Under the pieces are notes generated by a model that worked only from the letters and a program-made list of their open reading frames with translations, made no database searches and was not told the origin of the DNA. From the NCBI GenBank assembly GCA_029262235.1, contig JAJCZU010000003.1, positions 372,001-436,000 on the forward strand: a stretch of 64,000 nt of DNA. Reading direction: 5' to 3'. The translations under genes were made by a program, and so were the position numbers. Positions 21,383 through 34,673 of this stretch are shown one piece after another. How positions within the stretch are numbered: the stretch's first letter is position 1; every line of letters begins with the position of its first letter. This stretch comes from Candidatus Eiseniibacteriota bacterium (GTDB lineage: Bacteria > Orphanbacterota > Orphanbacteria > Orphanbacterales > Orphanbacteraceae).

Positions 21383-23447
21383 CGCCGGGCGCCGCGCCCG
21401 GGGCCCCGCCAGGGGGCGGGGCGGGAACGCGGTAGAGCTCGATCCCCTTCCATGCCCCCACCGGTTCGAGGCCGGCTACGTAACCGTTCAGCACCACCAT
21501 GGTCTCGCGTGCATACTGCCGTCCGAAGACTCGCTCGAGCGAACGGTTCACCGCGACCCAGCGCACGCCGCGTTCCGCCATGCGCGCACCGAACGCCTGC
21601 GAGGAGCCGTCCCGCTCCGCGAGTCGCGCGATCTGCGACGCTTCGAAGAAACTGTCCGCGATGTGCGGGCGATCGAATCCGTACAGGCGGTTCTCCCAGA
21701 GAAAGAGAACCGTTTCTCCAGGCGGTACTTGACGCGTGATGTTTTTGAGCGCTTCGTACGACTGCACGTGGCGGGCGCGGTACGATTCGCGGCTCTCCGT
21801 GCCGGCCACGACGGGAATCGTGTCGCGAGCGAGGTCCACCGCGGGGCGGAAGAGCCCGGCGCTCGTCGAGAGTACGAGCATCGCGATGATCGCGTAGCGC
21901 ATTTTCGAGCCGCGTGCCGGGAGCCAGTCCCAGCCGCATCCGGCCGCCAGAAAAACCAGCACGGGCAGAAAGAAGCGCGCCTGCTGGGGCCCGAGGGCCC
22001 AGAGCCAGATTCCGGCAACACCGGCCGCGATCGCGCCGCGCGCCCGCAGCCCCCCGAGCAGAGCGGCCGGGATCAGCGCGAGAAGAAGAACCGGGTGCAG
22101 CGTCCCGTCGAACCGCGCATAGCCGCGATCCCCTTCGAAGAAGAGCCGGAACGGGAGCAGCAGAAAGTCGAGGGGCGCGCGGCCCATCCCCATCGAGAGC
22201 TGCCAGTTCTGCAATCGATCCGCGAGCGCCGCGTCCCAGACCGGGTCGCTGCCCGGCACCACGGGGAAGAACGGATGTCCGCTCGTGATCGCGTTCCGCA
22301 CGATCCACGGGATGACGGGGATCGCCGCCAGCACAAGAAAGCCCGCGACCGCGCCGAAGGGAGCGGGGGCCGATGCGCGGTTGCCGTCGGCGCCGGCGGC
22401 ACGGGCGCGAGAAATCGCCGGGGTCCAGAAGAGCGCCGCGAGCACCGGCATCAGGAAGACGTTGCTGAGCTTGATCGCGAGAAATGCCCCGGCGAAGAAT
22501 CCGGCCGGCAGCAGCGCGGTCTTTGTTCGCCCCTCTTTTTGCCGCGGCCCGCCGTTTTCCCGGCCCAGAATCTGCTCGGCAGCCAGAAGAAAGAGAAGGG
22601 CGCTGAAGAGGTCGACGTTTCCGAAGGTCCGGGGGTCGAGCAGGATCGGGTGGGCGCATACGAGCAGGAAGGCGACGGGCATCAGTCCATTGAGCGCGTC
22701 CGGGGCGACCATACGCCCGAGCCGGGCGGCCGTGAGAGCGACTCCCGTGAGGGCGGCGACCCGAAGAAGCAGGGCGGCTCCCTCGCCGCCGAAGAGCCAG
22801 GCCGACGCATATCCCAGCGCCCCGAGGTGCGGCATGCGGCCGTAAATGCTCTCCGCCGGGAGCATGTGGGTGCCGCTCCCGGCCACGCGTCGCGCGATTT
22901 CGAAGTGGTATACCATCGCGTCGTTCGCGGTGGCCGGCGCCAGGGAGCGAAGCAGGACGAGCAGGAACACCAGAGCGACCGGAACGGCGAAAAGCAGAGT
23001 CTCGGTGTTCACGCGGTTCACGCGCAGGCGAACGCGAACCAGCGCCCTGTCCGGGCGCCGGAACACGAGCGGAAGCAGTGCGAGAGGCGCCAGCACGTAC
23101 CAGCGCAGGATGCCGAAAGTCGCGAGCAGCCAGCTGAGATGCGCGATCAGAACCATCCCCGCGACGAGCCAGGCCGTGAGTGAAACAGGAGCCTGCGACG
23201 GGGTACGCCTGAAGAGCGCGCCCCCCGACGCCCACGCGAGCGCGAGCACGATCGCCGCGCCGAGGACGGCCCGCAGGCCCCCTGATACATCTGGGCCCGT
23301 TCCGTCCTCCGCCGAAACGGAAAACGGCGGCCGCGACGGGTGAAATTTCAGGAAAAGGGCCGTGGCCGCGATCAACACCACCGCCCAGATCACCCAGAAA
23401 CGCGTTCCCGCGCGCGCATCGCTCTGTAGTGGGAATCCCCTTGACAC
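21372..23447 (-). CDS. GT39-like polytopic membrane protein
   Basis: This is a protein of up to 691 residues on the opposite strand, with 12 or so hydrophobic segments and a periplasmic loop containing NDAMVYHFEIARRVAGSG, a GT-C-like catalytic loop. The C-terminal ~150 residues are soluble, and the tail is Pro/Gly/Ala-rich and encoded by a GC palindrome. The annotated GTG start (23445-23447) has GGAG fused directly to it, which is poor spacing. A later GTG, at residue 19 just before the first membrane helix, is an alternative. The + strand promoter at 23441-23469 overlaps the start region, so this gene and the PD40 lipoprotein gene are tightly divergent. It ends 11 bases inside the convergent TPR gene. 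Confidence 0.8.
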   Translation of the reverse strand: MSRGFPLQSDARAGTRFWVIWAVVLIAATALFLKFHPSRPPFSVSAEDGTGPDVSGGLRAVLGAAIVLALAWASGGALFRRTPSQAPVSLTAWLVAGMVLIAHLSWLLATFGILRWYVLAPLALLPLVFRRPDRALVRVRLRVNRVNTETLLFAVPVALVFLLVLLRSLAPATANDAMVYHFEIARRVAGSGTHMLPAESIYGRMPHLGALGYASAWLFGGEGAALLLRVAALTGVALTAARLGRMVAPDALNGLMPVAFLLVCAHPILLDPRTFGNVDLFSALLFLLAAEQILGRENGGPRQKEGRTKTALLPAGFFAGAFLAIKLSNVFLMPVLAALFWTPAISRARAAGADGNRASAPAPFGAVAGFLVLAAIPVIPWIVRNAITSGHPFFPVVPGSDPVWDAALADRLQNWQLSMGMGRAPLDFLLLPFRLFFEGDRGYARFDGTLHPVLLLALIPAALLGGLRARGAIAAGVAGIWLWALGPQQARFFLPVLVFLAAGCGWDWLPARGSKMRYAIIAMLVLSTSAGLFRPAVDLARDTIPVVAGTESRESYRARHVQSYEALKNITRQVPPGETVLFLWENRLYGFDRPHIADSFFEASQIARLAERDGSSQAFGARMAERGVRWVAVNRSLERVFGRQYARETMVVLNGYVAGLEPVGAWKGIELYRVPAPPPGGAPGAAPGAIR

Positions 23448-23469
23448 TCCGGAAACCTTTCAGTATAGT
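23441..23469 (+). promoter_or_regulatory. Sigma-70-type promoter for the PD40 lipoprotein gene
   Basis: A perfect TTGACA (23441-23446) and TATAGT (23464-23469) are separated by 17 bases. The spacer ends in CCTTTCAG, closely resembling two other promoters at 25394 and 34644. The start codon of the downstream gene at 23551 would lie about 75 bases after the start of transcription. Confidence 0.85.
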
Positions 23470-23550
23470 CCCAATGCTTTAACTTCAAGTATTGTAACGC
23501 GTACGGGCGATTCCCCCTACCGTTTCCCTTTGATCAAGGAGTTCGATTCG

Positions 23551-25368
23551 TTGCGATCCTGTGCGTGGTCTTTCCGCGGCCTGCTCCACCAGGCGTTTCC
23601 CTTCTTCATGACGGCGGTCCTTTTTTCGGTCACCCTCGGGTGTGGCGACGACAATAAGGCGAGCGACGTCACATTTACCTGCGAAAACTGTGATTTCTGG
23701 GACCAGGTGCTGACCGACCACTCGGCGAATCCATCGTACTACCCGTTCCAGCCCGCTCCGGGCGAAGGCCGCGTGATCGCGTTCAGCAGCGATCGCGGGA
23801 ACTCCACGAACACCGAAAACATCTGGATCGTTTCGGAAGACGGGGACGGCAACCAGGAATTTTTCCAGATGACCGAAAGCGACCGGGACGAACTCGACCC
23901 GGCGTGGTCGCCATCGGGCGACCGGATCGCGTTCATGCGCGCTCTTCCCGACCGATACGACATTTTCGTGATCGACGCCACGGACTGGTCCGATCCGGGC
24001 GATGAAGTCCGCGTCACGAGCGAGTCCCCGATTCCGGGCGACAGTCAGATGATCGGCTTCGATCCGCGCGGGCCGGTCTGGCTCAGCGACGACGAGATCC
24101 TTTTTTCGAACAGTATCAATATTTATGTGGTCAAGCTCGACGAAGCGAACGAACCGGTCTCGCTCGAGAAGGTCATCAACGATCCGTCCGATTTCGTGCT
24201 CTCCGGTACCGCGGATTTCATCGAGTCGCAGCCGACCGGGATCCGGAGAAACGGCGCGACCGATATCTACTTCGTGTCCGATTCGCGCGTGGCCCTCGGG
24301 GCGATCACGGTGTCGGCTTTCGACGCCCTGACGGAGATTCCGATCAAGGCCGAGATCTTCCTGGAAGGCCGTTCGACCGCGACCAGCACGCCGAATATCA
24401 TCGGTGGACGGCCTCTCGGACCGTACGTCGTCGGTGCGGTCGTGTCCGATCTCGACGCCGTCGAGACTTACTGCGACACGCTTCTCACGACCGTGATCAA
24501 CGTGTTCGAAAACGACACGGCCGACGTCACCTTCGACTTCGAGAACGACCGGGGCGTCTTCCGCGTCATTCCATTCCCGCAGACCGCAGACCTTGCTGTA
24601 GACGGATTCAATCTGCCGCAGAACTTCGCCGAGACCACGTTCGTCGACTGCATCTTCCCGAACACCGATCACCTGATCACGATGGAAGCGCTGCAGCTCC
24701 GCGACCTCTGCAAGCGTCTCGCGGTCGACAGCGTGGTTGCGACCGTCGGCGTCCGCGAGACGACGACCGTGTTCCTGGACGCCACGCAGTTCGATCTGGA
24801 GGCATCCGGCTGCTGCGATACGATTCCCGGATTCGCGATCATCTGCTGCGATGTGACGGCCGAATGCTTCGACTGCCCTCGGATCCGCACGAACTGCGAC
24901 ACGACGTTCCTGGGGGGCGGCGGCAAATGGGCCGACGCGGCGCCCGAGGAACTGCCCGAGCCCGAATGGAATACGGGGGGGAGCCGCAAGGTCGCCATGG
25001 AACCCGTTCTCTGGTACTTCGACGGAGTGGAAGGCGCGTACGCTTCGCTGACAGACGGCACCTTCCTGCCTTCCCATCCCACGATTTCTCATGACGGCAC
25101 GAAACTGGCCGTCGTGGCCGACTTCACGGCCTTGTTCGTGCTCGACTTCCTGACCGATACTGCCTATCGAGTTCCGCTTCCCGGCGAGATCGGCGTGAAC
25201 GAGTGCGTGCGGGAGATCATTTCGCCGAAATGGTCGCCGGATGACTCGAAAATTGCAATCTCACTGACACCGTGCACCGATCGTCCCTCGTCCGACGGAA
25301 ACGCCCCGGAATATCAGGTCTGGGAAGTCGACTACGAGAAGGCGAAGCAGGTCGTCGGTACGCCGTAA
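23551..25368 (+). CDS. PD40/TolB-like beta-propeller lipoprotein
   Basis: This predicted lipoprotein has about 605 residues. The frame is open from 23362, but the promoter at 23441-23469 lies inside that part, so the start must be downstream of it. TTG 23551 has AAGGAG nine bases upstream and gives a hydrophobic signal peptide ending VTLGC, with the lipid-bearing Cys at residue 31 (a non-canonical lipobox). The mature part has PD40 units near the N-terminus (RVIAFSSDRGNS, DPAWSPSGDRIAFMRALPD) and the C-terminus (PKWSPDDSKIAIS). A Cys-rich middle (about residues 400-460) may be disulfide-bonded. PD40 propellers in TolB bind partner proteins in the periplasm; the role here is unknown. It opens the surface-protein region. 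Confidence 0.82.
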   Translation: MRSCAWSFRGLLHQAFPFFMTAVLFSVTLGCGDDNKASDVTFTCENCDFWDQVLTDHSANPSYYPFQPAPGEGRVIAFSSDRGNSTNTENIWIVSEDGDGNQEFFQMTESDRDELDPAWSPSGDRIAFMRALPDRYDIFVIDATDWSDPGDEVRVTSESPIPGDSQMIGFDPRGPVWLSDDEILFSNSINIYVVKLDEANEPVSLEKVINDPSDFVLSGTADFIESQPTGIRRNGATDIYFVSDSRVALGAITVSAFDALTEIPIKAEIFLEGRSTATSTPNIIGGRPLGPYVVGAVVSDLDAVETYCDTLLTTVINVFENDTADVTFDFENDRGVFRVIPFPQTADLAVDGFNLPQNFAETTFVDCIFPNTDHLITMEALQLRDLCKRLAVDSVVATVGVRETTTVFLDATQFDLEASGCCDTIPGFAIICCDVTAECFDCPRIRTNCDTTFLGGGGKWADAAPEELPEPEWNTGGSRKVAMEPVLWYFDGVEGAYASLTDGTFLPSHPTISHDGTKLAVVADFTALFVLDFLTDTAYRVPLPGEIGVNECVREIISPKWSPDDSKIAISLTPCTDRPSSDGNAPEYQVWEVDYEKAKQVVGTP

Positions 25369-25393: not shown

Positions 25394-25423
25394 TTGACAT
25401 TCAGCAAAATTCTTTGGTATACT
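25394..25423 (+). promoter_or_regulatory. Sigma-70-type promoter for the abundant-looking surface protein
   Basis: TTGACA at 25394-25399 and TATACT at 25418-25423 are separated by 18 bases, with a spacer ending TTCTTTGG. Transcription would begin near 25430, leaving a leader of about 340 bases before the ATG at 25772. Confidence 0.88.
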
Positions 25424-25429
25424 ACGTTA

Positions 25430-25771
25430 CGGTGTCAATGGATCTGCACGCCTCCACGATGGAGAATTGCAGATGAAACCGCCGGTCTAGTTTGCTAAGT
25501 CATTGCAACTTGGAAACTTGTACTGGACTGCCTATATCTGGCATCTCCAGGATGGGGGGGTGATACAAGCCGTAAAGATGTAAGTGTCTTCTACGGCTGT
25601 CGTTGAGGCCTGCCGTAGGAAGGACGGGCCTCAAGGCTCTATCCTGATTTCACGAGCCCCCCCGGGGGCTTAAACAGCTCGCGATCAAGCCGAATCCTGA
25701 CGCGTCAGGACGTATTGCGAGTCCCGATTTTCTCCGTGTTCCTTACACGCTTGCTTATGGAGGGCAGAAAT
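25430..25771 (+). promoter_or_regulatory. Long structured 5' leader RNA (candidate cis-regulatory element)
   Basis: About 340 bases without a credible gene lie between the promoter and the ATG at 25772. I can draw these hairpins: TCTGCA 25443-25448 with TGCAGA 25468-25473, with inner CTCCA/TGGAG; AGCCGTA 25568-25574 with TACGGCT 25592-25598, with inner AAGA/TCTT; GAGGC 25605-25609 with GCCTC 25628-25632, with inner CCGT/ACGG; AGCCCCC 25655-25661 with GGGGGCT 25664-25670; and a perfect 16-base palindrome at 25695-25710. Single-stranded stretches between them include a G run at 25554-25560. I recognise no known riboswitch class. It could be a riboswitch, an RNA stabiliser or a protein-binding leader. 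Confidence 0.6.
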
Positions 25772-28700
25772 ATGAGGAACAGAACCCTAAGTTACTTCGC
25801 GGCCGGGCTTGGTGCCGTGTGTCTCTTCGCCGTATCGGCTACGGCAGAGATCACGACGACGCCTAAAGAGCCCACCAGCCAGCGAGTAATCAACGGTGAG
25901 ATCCTTACCGAAGACGGTGGGATTGCTTACACGAAGGTTGCCGCGCCGGGTGATACCGCGTGGATCCGTGTCTGGGATGGCACGGAATGTGATCCGACAG
26001 GCGTCGTTTCCGATGGCGGGCAAGGTATTCTTGCTCCCGGTTACGCCACCTGGTGCTGGGAAGGTGGCAATCTGGGCGGCGGTCTTTTTGACACGTGCGC
26101 CACGACCACCGCTTATGGCGGCGGCCTCCCCGGCTGCTTCGATCACTATGATGTTTTCACCGCTCTTACCAACAAATGGCATCTCGACACGTTTGATTCG
26201 TTCGATCCGATCGGCGATCCGAACGGTGTCACGCCGTGGTGTGGTGAGTTCGGCGATCCGCTGATCTGGCAGAACGCTTACGGTTATGGCCCGGCCTATA
26301 ACTTCAGCCTTATCCTGAACCTCGGATCGACCACTTCTGGTGCACTCGTGACCGGTTTCGACGCGAGCGGCGGCTTTACGGTTGCCGGTCAGCATATGTA
26401 TGACGTCGAAATCAACTACGATTACTGCTACCTCGAGTACGCCGTTTCGAACGACTCGATCAACGCTACGTGGTTCGAGCTCGATCGTTATAACGGTACG
26501 TCGAACCTCGACGGTGGTTGCACCGGTACGGGCGGTCCTGCGCCCAACTACGGTTGCGCCCAGTACGAATCCTTCTCGGCGAACGGTCCCGCAGTAAACA
26601 ACTCTGCGACGAACGTGTATGTCCGCTGGCGTTTCGCCTCGGACAACGCCTGGGACGATGAAGACGCTTCCGGTGGTGTCCATACGGACGGCGCCTGGCG
26701 TGTCGACAATGTCTCGGCTGACGGTCTTGCCGGCGGTACTGATTACCCCACGCAGGGCTTCGGCTCGACGCATGAAGGCCCGCTGCCCGCGCAGTGGAGC
26801 ACCCCGAACTTCCCGGGCGCGCAGCTCGGCGGGTTCTGGAGTGGCGGCGTCTGGGTGAACGGTACGCCGGTCTCGGTTGACTGGTGGCACCTGGAACTCG
26901 ATCCTTCGTACTCGAACAAGGGCAATACGTGTACCTACACGAACAACTGGATCTGGACCGCGGATGATGCCGCATTTGGTCAGAACCAGGAAGATGCCTA
27001 CCACTACCGTCTTACCTCGCCGGTCTTCGATACTTCGGAAAACAACCCGTACTGGGATCCGAACAACGATGGCCCGGGCGCGGACAACAAGTGGACCGGT
27101 GTCGTGCTCGAGTTCGATTCGTATCTCTGCATTAAAGATATCGTCGGTGACGTTACGGATCAGCAGGTCCGCGTTTACGACGGTTCCGCGAATGTCTGGG
27201 GTCAGTGGGGCGGCGACAACTACGTGAACGTAGGTGGTTGCCAGTTCTGGACCGTCGATGCACGGACCGACTGGTCCTCGCAGCTGACGTCGACCTCCGA
27301 CTCGATCCAGTTCTCGTGGGAATTCCTCGATCGCTGTGATTACAACTCCGCTGGTGAGCTTCCCTGCATGGGTCAGCATCGCAAAGCTACGTTCCTCGTG
27401 GATAACGTCAGCTTCGGTGTGTTCCAGTCGCGTGCGACGCAGTGGAGCCTCGGTGGTGCGAACCAGTTCCAGGACACCTTCGCCCGTGATACGGATATGC
27501 ATTCGTCGGGTAAGGAAAACTGGGAAATGTTCGCTGCTGATACGTGGGAAGACGAAGATTCCCTGCAGATCGAAGTCCGTGACTTCGATGGTCTCAAAGG
27601 TGGCCAGGTCAAGGTTCACTGGAGAATTTCGACCGACTGCGGACAGAACTTCGATCTGGACAACGGTCGTCCGGCCGGCGGAACCGCCGCACCGGCAGCC
27701 GTCTACAATCAGAAAGCTCTGAACTTCTCGCTCGCGGATGATCCGATCGGCTGCCCCGGCACGCCGTGCGAATTCAACGGATCGTACCGCTCGCGTATTC
27801 GTATCTCGGAAAACCTCGGCTACCTCGGTGGCGGGGCGACGGAATGGCCCGAAGGAACTCTCATCGAGTACTTCTTCACGGCCGAAGACAGTGTGGGGAA
27901 CCTCGATACGTTCCCGAACCGTCAGTCCCTCGCGAGAACGGATGCCAATCTGATCAACACGACGATTGGTCACGATCGTCGCCTCGAATGGCCTTTCCAG
28001 GTTCGCGTACTTCCGTGCCCGACCTCGAAAGTTGCTCTCGGCGCTGGTCAGAATCAGCGAGTCCTGCTCGTTTCGCGTCCGCAGGGACGGACCTACGATG
28101 TGGAAACCGACCCGACCCAGTCGCAGGCTGGCAACGTTGCGTTCCCGCAGTTCCGTCAGATGTGGCGTGAATCTCTCGATCGTCTTGGCGTTGTCTACGA
28201 TGAGTACCGGATCTACAGCTCCGGTGTCTCCCGTGGCGGCGGCACGCCGATCTACAACGAACCGTTCGACCATGATGGTTACGGTGGTGCGATCGCTCGC
28301 AACGCCGGCGCGATCACCGGTCGTCGCTATGAGTCCGTCGTATGGTTCACGGGTCGTTTCAACGACAACCTGACCATGGCCGACTCCACGCAGCTCGAAG
28401 TCGCGACGTATCTTGATAAGAACGCCACGAACTTCTCTGGTGGTGCGAACCTCTTCATCGCTGGTAACGACATTTGCGAAGCAAACGAACTGTCGGATCC
28501 GGCGTGGGTGGACGCAAACAGCGTACAGACCACGAACGGTGCTGAGTTCTGGTTGAACCTCGCTGGCCTTCAGGCTGAAACGGGTGGTTGCCCGGATGAC
28601 GGCGGTCTCTCCGCTGCTCCCGGTGGCAACGTCATCGGTCTCGTTGGACAGCCCGGCACGATCATGTCGGACCTGACCGCTCTCGTCGGATACTGGGATT

Positions 28701-29260
28701 GCCCGCTTCTGGACAACCCGGACGAAATCACGGCGAACGGCGCGACGGCCATCATGAACTTCGCCAGCACGAATGGACCCACGATGTTCCGCAACGTGAT
28801 TCCGCATGCCGGTCCCGGCGCGGATTCCAAGGTCATCGTTTCGTCCACGCCGATCGACCTGTACACCAGCGCGCAGATGCGTGACTGCGTGATGCAGGCC
28901 GTGCTGACGGACTTCGGTGTCGGTATTCCGAATCCGAATACCAACTGCGTAATCGACGTTGGTGTCGATACGGGTGTTCCGCAGCGTGTCACGCTGCATC
29001 AGAACACGCCGAACCCGTTCAACCCGCTTACGAAGATTCGCTTCAGCATTCCGACGCAGCAGAAGGTCGACCTCAAGATCTTCGACATCGCCGGTCGCGA
29101 AGTGAAAACCCTCGTCAGCGGCGCCCTTCCTGAAGGCGATCACTCGTACGAGTGGCGCGGACAGGACAACGCTGGTAACGGCGTTGGATCGGGTGTCTAC
29201 TTCTACACCCTCAATACTGATGGTCAGAAGCAGACGAAGAAGATGGTGCTCATCCGCTAA
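25772..29260 (+). CDS. Large secreted surface protein with FlgD/T9SS-like C-terminal sorting domain
   Basis: This is a protein of 1,162 residues. A signal peptide spans residues 1 to about 25 (ending VSATA). The body is Gly/Asp/Asn/Trp-rich, with several beta-sandwich-like blocks ending AWRVDNVS or TFLVDNVSFG. The C-terminal ~90 residues form an Ig-like sorting domain: HQNTPNPFNPLTKIRFSIP, then IFDIAGREVKTLVSG, GSGVYFYTL and a final MVLIR. Such domains send proteins through type IX-like systems to the cell surface in the FCB group. The ATG at 25772 has GGAGGG seven bases upstream; an earlier in-frame start at 25715 lacks a signal peptide. Codons favour GGT, CGT and GCT far more than the neighbours, a mark of high expression. 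Strong promoter, long leader and strong terminator agree. Function is unknown, possibly a major surface component. Confidence 0.88.
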   Translation: MRNRTLSYFAAGLGAVCLFAVSATAEITTTPKEPTSQRVINGEILTEDGGIAYTKVAAPGDTAWIRVWDGTECDPTGVVSDGGQGILAPGYATWCWEGGNLGGGLFDTCATTTAYGGGLPGCFDHYDVFTALTNKWHLDTFDSFDPIGDPNGVTPWCGEFGDPLIWQNAYGYGPAYNFSLILNLGSTTSGALVTGFDASGGFTVAGQHMYDVEINYDYCYLEYAVSNDSINATWFELDRYNGTSNLDGGCTGTGGPAPNYGCAQYESFSANGPAVNNSATNVYVRWRFASDNAWDDEDASGGVHTDGAWRVDNVSADGLAGGTDYPTQGFGSTHEGPLPAQWSTPNFPGAQLGGFWSGGVWVNGTPVSVDWWHLELDPSYSNKGNTCTYTNNWIWTADDAAFGQNQEDAYHYRLTSPVFDTSENNPYWDPNNDGPGADNKWTGVVLEFDSYLCIKDIVGDVTDQQVRVYDGSANVWGQWGGDNYVNVGGCQFWTVDARTDWSSQLTSTSDSIQFSWEFLDRCDYNSAGELPCMGQHRKATFLVDNVSFGVFQSRATQWSLGGANQFQDTFARDTDMHSSGKENWEMFAADTWEDEDSLQIEVRDFDGLKGGQVKVHWRISTDCGQNFDLDNGRPAGGTAAPAAVYNQKALNFSLADDPIGCPGTPCEFNGSYRSRIRISENLGYLGGGATEWPEGTLIEYFFTAEDSVGNLDTFPNRQSLARTDANLINTTIGHDRRLEWPFQVRVLPCPTSKVALGAGQNQRVLLVSRPQGRTYDVETDPTQSQAGNVAFPQFRQMWRESLDRLGVVYDEYRIYSSGVSRGGGTPIYNEPFDHDGYGGAIARNAGAITGRRYESVVWFTGRFNDNLTMADSTQLEVATYLDKNATNFSGGANLFIAGNDICEANELSDPAWVDANSVQTTNGAEFWLNLAGLQAETGGCPDDGGLSAAPGGNVIGLVGQPGTIMSDLTALVGYWDCPLLDNPDEITANGATAIMNFASTNGPTMFRNVIPHAGPGADSKVIVSSTPIDLYTSAQMRDCVMQAVLTDFGVGIPNPNTNCVIDVGVDTGVPQRVTLHQNTPNPFNPLTKIRFSIPTQQKVDLKIFDIAGREVKTLVSGALPEGDHSYEWRGQDNAGNGVGSGVYFYTLNTDGQKQTKKMVLIR

Positions 29261-29290
29261 GCTTCGCTTGGCAGATTGCAGATAGCATCG

Positions 29291-29322
29291 CCGCCGGGAT
29301 CTTCGGATCCCGGCGGCTTTTT
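29291..29322 (+). terminator. Rho-independent terminator
   Basis: An 11-base perfect stem (CCGCCGGGATC 29291-29301 with GATCCCGGCGG 29306-29316) is closed by a TTCG tetraloop and followed by CTTTTT. It lies 30 bases after the stop of the surface-protein gene and is the clearest terminator in the window. Confidence 0.95.
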
Positions 29323-29373
29323 CGTGTCTGCATCGGAGGGTGCGCGGCGGGGGGAGGTCGGCTCTGTATTGTT

Positions 29374-29450
29374 GCGCGGGTCCTGTCGCGCCCGGCCACC
29401 CCTGCCTCGGCAGGCTCGGCAGGGGTCCCCGTCGGGCGCGCCACCCGCGC
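29374..29450 (-). repeat. Nested palindromic repeat, copy A
   Basis: This is one of three copies of a 75-81 base element (others at 31016-31096 and 54587-54661). Read on the minus strand it has outer arms GCGGGTGGCGCG and CGCGACAGGACCCGC and an inner stem CCCCTGCC / GGCAGGGG around the loop core GAGCCTGCCGAG. A purine run at 29519-29551 (pyrimidine on the minus strand) lies 68 bases upstream in the element's own orientation. The rest of 29323-29594 shows no gene or other clear signal. Confidence 0.85.
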
Positions 29451-29518
29451 AGAGAGGGAGAGCGATCATTCCCGCCGCGATGTCGACGCAGGCACGAAGA
29501 AAGCCGCTTGTCTCTTGC

Positions 29519-29551
29519 GAGGGGGAGAAGAGGGGGAGAGGAAGAGGGAAG
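29519..29551 (-). repeat. Polypyrimidine tract (minus strand) linked to repeat copy A
   Basis: There are 33 uninterrupted purines on the + strand, hence pyrimidines on the minus strand. It sits 5' of palindromic repeat copy A when both are read on the minus strand, matching the arrangement at copies B and C. Confidence 0.8.
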
Positions 29552-29630
29552 CACGTGGTGCTAGCCGGCAAGGCGTGCTAAAATCGAAAGAGGCATGCAA
29601 TCGTGCCGACTTCCTCTGGAGCGCCGATCA

Positions 29631-34643: not shown

Positions 34644-34673
34644 TTGACACTTTGAAAAACCCTTTGGTATAGT
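34644..34673 (+). promoter_or_regulatory. Sigma-70-type promoter for the LVIVD lipoprotein operon
   Basis: TTGACA at 34644-34649 and TATAGT at 34668-34673 have an 18-base spacer ending CCCTTTGG, almost the same as the promoter at 25394. The predicted transcript starts about 50-60 bases before the start codon. Confidence 0.87.

Follow-up and report, generated by a model that had tools for sequence, protein, structure and literature searches.

The 342 nt between an inferred transcription start and a large surface-type protein gene were analysed in the window (the whole stretch of DNA studied, 64,000 nt in length). The leader is read, at a probability of roughly 0.45, as a cis-acting 5' UTR on which ribosomes would dock, with standby loading of a structured start site and possibly protection of the mRNA. 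Its most informative feature, missed in the first reading of the sequence, is a conserved Shine-Dalgarno (SD)-like element in mid-leader with no start codon behind it, which suggests docking of 30S subunits. Together with a hairpin at the start site, it points towards a device that loads ribosomes or protects the mRNA rather than a classical metabolite switch. Standby loading was ranked first, stabilisation second and a signal-regulated leader next.

The phylum sample comprised 7 genomes in 5 genera, and the leader was compared in 6 genomes of 4 genera. The window genome (G000) and its congener (G001) belong to genus g1, and G004 and G006 to genus g4. The g4 leaders were labelled L035 (G004) and L034 (G006); L031 (g3) and L033 (g2) denote leaders with the promoter at -378 from the ATG. 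Orthologs of the surface gene adjoin the same upstream PD40-type gene in G001, G002, G003, G004 and G006. Coordinates of the features in the window are collected in the table.

Features of the leader and surface gene (window positions; g1 to g4 are genera)
Feature	Position	Strand	Basis and detail
Promoter TTGACA-N18-TATACT, TG extended -10	25394..25423	+	sequence; same promoter in g2, g3, g4
Untranslated leader, 342 nt	25430..25771	+	inferred from promoter and ATG
Two 5'-proximal hairpins	25443-25473; 25482-25526	+	folding; as sequence only in G000/G001
Central block, 111 nt, identical in congener	25546..25656	+	alignment and folding
Non-initiating SD-like element GGGGGGGTGAT	25554..25564	+	complementary (G-U included) to 11 nt of 16S 3' end; -218 from ATG
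GCCG and short hairpin including 16-base palindrome	25688..25710	+	analogous motif in other genera
Start-site hairpin	25737..25781	+	TGTTCCTTA (25737-25745) pairs with TGAGGAACA (25773-25781); folding and conservation
Real Shine-Dalgarno GGAGGGCAG of surface gene	25759..25767	+	sequence; ATGGAGGGCAGA invariant in 6/6
Surface-type protein gene, 1162 aa	25772..29260	+	ATG 25772-25774; C-terminal FlgD_ig/secretion-tail domain

The -35 hexamer TTGACA (25394-25399) and the -10 hexamer TATACT (25418-25423) match the consensus at 11 of 12 positions, with a TG one base ahead of the -10. The orthologous promoter, TTGACA-N18-TGGTATAAT, was found at -378 from the ATG in G002 and G003, as in the window, and at -369 in G004 and G006. 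Because the promoter-ATG distance is conserved in three other genera, the 5' end of the transcript very likely lies near 25430. Measured from the corresponding point, the leaders of g2 and g3 likewise span 342 nt and those of g4 333 nt. Both the near-consensus promoter and the ~340 untranslated bases of the original prediction were thus upheld.

Constraint on the leader was estimated against the congener: of 341 aligned bases 13 differ (3.8%), none of them in the central 111 nt. Divergence at fourfold sites was 33% for the upstream gene and 13% for the surface gene. Leader divergence is about nine times below that of fourfold sites in the neighbouring upstream gene, and the leader is therefore under strong selection. 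Between genera the leaders were aligned by BLAST only at the ribosome-binding site (RBS), and the central block is unrecognisable apart from the SD-like element. A long functional leader is strongly supported by the comparison of homologous genes that had been asked for, since four genera share the promoter position, the leader length and two elements.

The first of these elements was located by scoring every 16-nt segment in each leader for duplex formation with the 16S 3' end GGAUCACCUCCUUU. The 16S 3' end of the window genome itself, GGCTGGATCACCTCCTTT, is standard; the GGAUCACCUCCUUU segment was located at C6:88702, and the search pattern had a single mismatch, which fell outside this segment. 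The strongest 16S duplex fell at -216 to -221 (+116 to +127 from the inferred start) in all six leaders, with 9-12 nt of complementarity and duplex energies of -17.2 to -22.9 kcal/mol; the real RBS scored about -10. Dinucleotide shuffles matched both strength and position in 4 of 1000 cases for L031 and in 0 of 1000 for each of L033 and L034. The variants GGGGGGGTGAT, GAGGAGGTGAT, TGGAGGTGATCC and AAGGAGGTGGTC share the 9-nt core GGRGGUGRU, within which the only differences are A-to-G, so that pairing with the 16S U is kept. Neither a start codon at usable spacing nor a common open reading frame was found behind the element in the six leaders. Global folds left 20-43% of it unpaired, a degree of openness that does not exceed that of the remaining leader and was counted against the docking reading.

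An open frame of 70 codons, confined to g4 (L034/L035), begins at -209 with the GTG of the upstream SD and extends beyond the ATG. It is probably not coding, because the differences between L034 and L035 look mostly non-synonymous. Control by an upstream open reading frame, a leader peptide or translational coupling was rejected: the leaders share no start or frame, and the 70-codon frame is absent outside g4.

The second element is the start-site hairpin, in which the AUG lies in the stem and the real SD in the loop or inner stem, in the order UGUUCCU...GGAGGGCAG...AUGAGGAAC. TGTTCCT, ATGGAGGGCAGA and ATGAGGAAC are invariant in the six leaders and the spacers vary by no more than 7 bases; in the alignment of G002 the gap was placed ahead of the final T of TGTTCCT. 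The hairpin was the minimum free energy (MFE) structure in 5 of 5 distinct sequences, at -11.5 to -17.3 kcal/mol (z -1.5 to -5.5). Six of the 7 genomes contain the motif GTTCCT-N6..30-GGAGGGCAG, each in a single copy that precedes the surface gene; its reversed control gave 0. Codon 2 is AGG in 6/6; of the Arg codons checked, this one is used least in the ribosomal-protein set. In full-length folds the hairpin was kept in G000, G001, G002 and G003, barely kept in G004 and lost to other pairings in G006; it is therefore well supported locally and uncertain in context. A covariation test is without power on this sample, because the leader is represented by only four independent lineages (7-genome phylum); the start-site helix is moreover invariant, with one arm coding. 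The upstream SD was also predicted to pair with the UUCCU arm of the hairpin at -9 to -15 kcal/mol, most strongly in g4. This pairing is not claimed, since the other leaders pair differently.

Folding of the whole leader gave an MFE of -132.9 kcal/mol against -112 kcal/mol for shuffled sequences (z -3.64, and -3.5 in a repeat run), and 0 of 100 shuffles were equally stable. Six hairpins were predicted (25443-25473, 25482-25526, 25568-25598, 25603-25634, 25653-25671 and ~25681-25718), in line with the at least four good hairpins first noted. The region of the two 5'-proximal hairpins (25443..25526) is the most variable third of the leader relative to the congener. In the folding model of the central block, a stem (25547-25553/25641-25647) encloses the SD-like element and the hairpins 25568-25598 and 25603-25634. 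The palindrome TCCTGACGCGTCAGGA (25695-25710) is perfect over 16 bases and matches itself on the opposite strand, as had been described; its placement close to the RBS was a loose description, as it lies ~50 nt ahead. In the other genera an analog of the GCCG-plus-hairpin was located at -82 to -96, where the stem is built from other letters, and its recurrence as a shared motif is suggestive only.

Unusual stability is a property of some leaders and not a general one: z was -3.0 to -3.6 in g1 and g2, 0.1 in g3 (L031), and -1.7 and 0.1 (L035) in g4. A consensus fold of the six leaders (RNAalifold) reached -28.5 kcal/mol against about -130 kcal/mol for single sequences, and the underlying alignment misplaces G002; no shared fold can therefore be claimed. 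Conservation of the paired regions in relatives, on which the original prediction was staked, held for the start-site hairpin across genera, and most of the other helices were not kept as sequence.

In the mechanism proposed, 30S subunits would bind the upstream SD and wait there on standby. Breathing of the start-site hairpin would allow the waiting subunit to capture the weak, partly closed RBS, and loading of this kind could keep a large secreted protein translated at a steady, high rate. The docked subunit and the stable stems might in addition protect the 5' region of the transcript. The nearest known case is the standby site of E. coli tisB, in which a single-stranded region and a 5' pseudoknot are needed for binding of 30S and S1 (PMC7708055). 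Both systems combine a structured, closed RBS with a distant 30S docking site, putative in the present leader and 100 nt away in tisB. They differ in that the tisB docking site is not described as an SD (PMC7708055), and here ~195 nt separate the upstream SD from the real SD. The RBS closure that marks standby sites was found in the local start-site hairpin, more weakly in the full-length folds of G006 and G004. A closed start site fits standby better than it fits the STAB-SD elements of Bacillus.

A stabiliser of the STAB-SD type, in which 30S on the upstream SD and the 5' stems would block mRNA decay with loading of the RBS uninvolved, was held to be unlikely. STAB-SD is defined by an upstream SD that is strongly complementary to 16S and lacks a start codon (PMC4113751). 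The leader shares this with Bacillus thuringiensis cryIIIA/cry3A and the polypurine stabilisers of B. subtilis, together with the remoteness of the SD and the long 5' UTR; the known genes encode proteins made in quantity, and abundance is an assumption here. Genera g1 and g2 have very stable predicted 5' stems, and a much-used mRNA would be in keeping with the surface gene's low synonymous divergence. However, the known element acts near a processed 5' end, where the docked 30S blocks the 5'-3' exonuclease RNase J1 (PMC4113751), whereas the upstream SD is internal to a structured leader (about +125) and not at a mapped processed 5' end. Searches with the RNase J model TIGR00649 reached the cut-off in 0 of 7 phylum genomes, compared with 9 of 14 controls, and RNase E/G was detected in 7 of 7. 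The sequence hallmark of STAB-SD, a non-initiating SD with 16S complementarity, was thus found, in organisms in which RNase J was undetected. Downstream lacZ in E. coli gains no protection against RNase E from a ribosome bound stably at the 5' end (PMC3997798). On account of the nuclease survey and the lacZ result, the exact STAB-SD mechanism is unlikely.

Stabilising 5' UTRs of the E. coli ompA type resemble the present leader in serving an envelope protein, in their 5'-proximal stems and in occurring in an organism of the RNase E type. The leader of ompA is the shorter of the two and is not known to carry a remote SD.

The start-site hairpin could also be the off state of a regulated leader, switched by temperature, a protein, a small RNA or a metabolite sensed upstream; this was thought improbable. 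It would account for the conservation and stability of a hairpin that holds the AUG in its stem, for an invariant ATGGAGGGCAGA loop that exceeds what an SD requires, and for the invariance of the 111-nt central block within the genus. None of the 4227 Rfam families reached its gathering score, and the leader drew no hit even at E<=1, so a known riboswitch family was rejected for want of any match to a curated covariance model, as the first reading had anticipated. The leader is like the Rfam riboswitches and leader families in being a structured 5' UTR and unlike them in matching no family and preceding one gene per genome. No further copies of the leader were found elsewhere in the genome, and no second gene carries it in the genomes of the phylum sample. 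Conserved pairing upstream of unrelated genes, named beforehand as the sign of a riboswitch-like element, did not appear, as the leader precedes the surface gene only. With no consensus fold among the four lineages either, the suggestion of a signal-sensing element of this kind found no support. The central block beyond the SD, moreover, is not recognisable across genera.

Two specific forms of regulation were rejected. For CsrA, 0 of 7 genomes exceeded the cut-off; weak homologs were found in 4 of 7 and none in G004 and G006, which carry the leader, although the GGA expected of a CsrA target is present as AUGGA in the loop of the start-site hairpin. Long-range pairing of the upstream leader with the RBS, taken from the g1 fold and RNAalifold, was not the best complement in L031, L034 or L035 and is not shared. 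Attenuation was set aside in the absence of a convincing terminator inside the leader. A literature search on S-layer leaders gave nothing usable.

An ordinary long leader, whose promoter position was inherited with the end of the upstream gene, whose SD is the relic of a lost small gene and whose structure follows from G+C, is already disfavoured and has a slim chance of being correct. The z values near 0 in L031 and L035, the unconserved helices and the single leader per genome are what it would predict; it does not explain 3.8% divergence beside 33% at fourfold sites, nor an SD-like element and start hairpin kept in four genera while the rest is saturated and no open reading frame is shared. 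A separate small RNA made from the leader promoter and ending ahead of the gene would suit the strong promoter, the compact structured 342 nt and the invariant centre, and is very improbable because the leader has no convincing T-run terminator (the sole listed 5-bp stem, 25735-25749, and the unshared GC hairpin 25653-25671 both lack a T-run) and no second promoter match lies between the latter hairpin and the ATG.

Standby loading by way of the upstream SD would have a further consequence if the element served as a ribosome sensor, with occupancy by free 30S deciding whether the start-site hairpin opens and surface-protein output tracking ribosome availability. This extension is doubtful; if true, a remote-SD standby device would have evolved in an RNase E phylum. 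Non-initiating leader SDs are best known from Bacillus, where they are explained by RNase J. A strongly conserved SD of this kind, combined with a closed start site in a group where RNase E/G was found and RNase J was not, would separate standby from an exonuclease roadblock as reasons for such elements. The leader could also serve as a portable expression leader for little-studied bacteria.

The product of the surface gene has an N-terminus resembling a signal peptide and, at the C-terminus, a FlgD_ig/Por_Secre-like sorting domain. The gene is probably monocistronic because a strong terminator (29290-29317) stands at its end. Its codon adaptation index (CAI) of 0.651 is average and uninformative on abundance (ribosomal proteins 0.659; window genes 0.53-0.74). 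Its low synonymous divergence is compatible with high expression, other causes being possible. Of the abundant surface protein first proposed, the surface part is plausible from the terminal domains; abundance was not borne out by the ordinary CAI, though synonymous divergence is low. A 1255-codon open frame lies antisense to the whole gene (25787-29554, minus strand) and is likely a by-product of codon usage. A second paralog group of the surface protein (L036, at G000:C2:265090-268464, L037 and L032; ~58-66% identical) occurs in G000, G001 and G005, in another neighbourhood and with short leaders.

Two other promoters in the window were noted. At 34644-34673, TTGACA-N18-TATAGT with TTTGG ahead of the -10, similar in style to the promoter of the surface gene, precedes another lipoprotein-like gene with a leader of only ~60 nt. 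At 23441-23559, a TTGACA-N17-TATAGT promoter stands before the PD40 lipoprotein gene, and this segment is 98% identical in the congener compared with 75% for 23236-23440 directly upstream; it is probably a second constrained leader, of ~130 nt.
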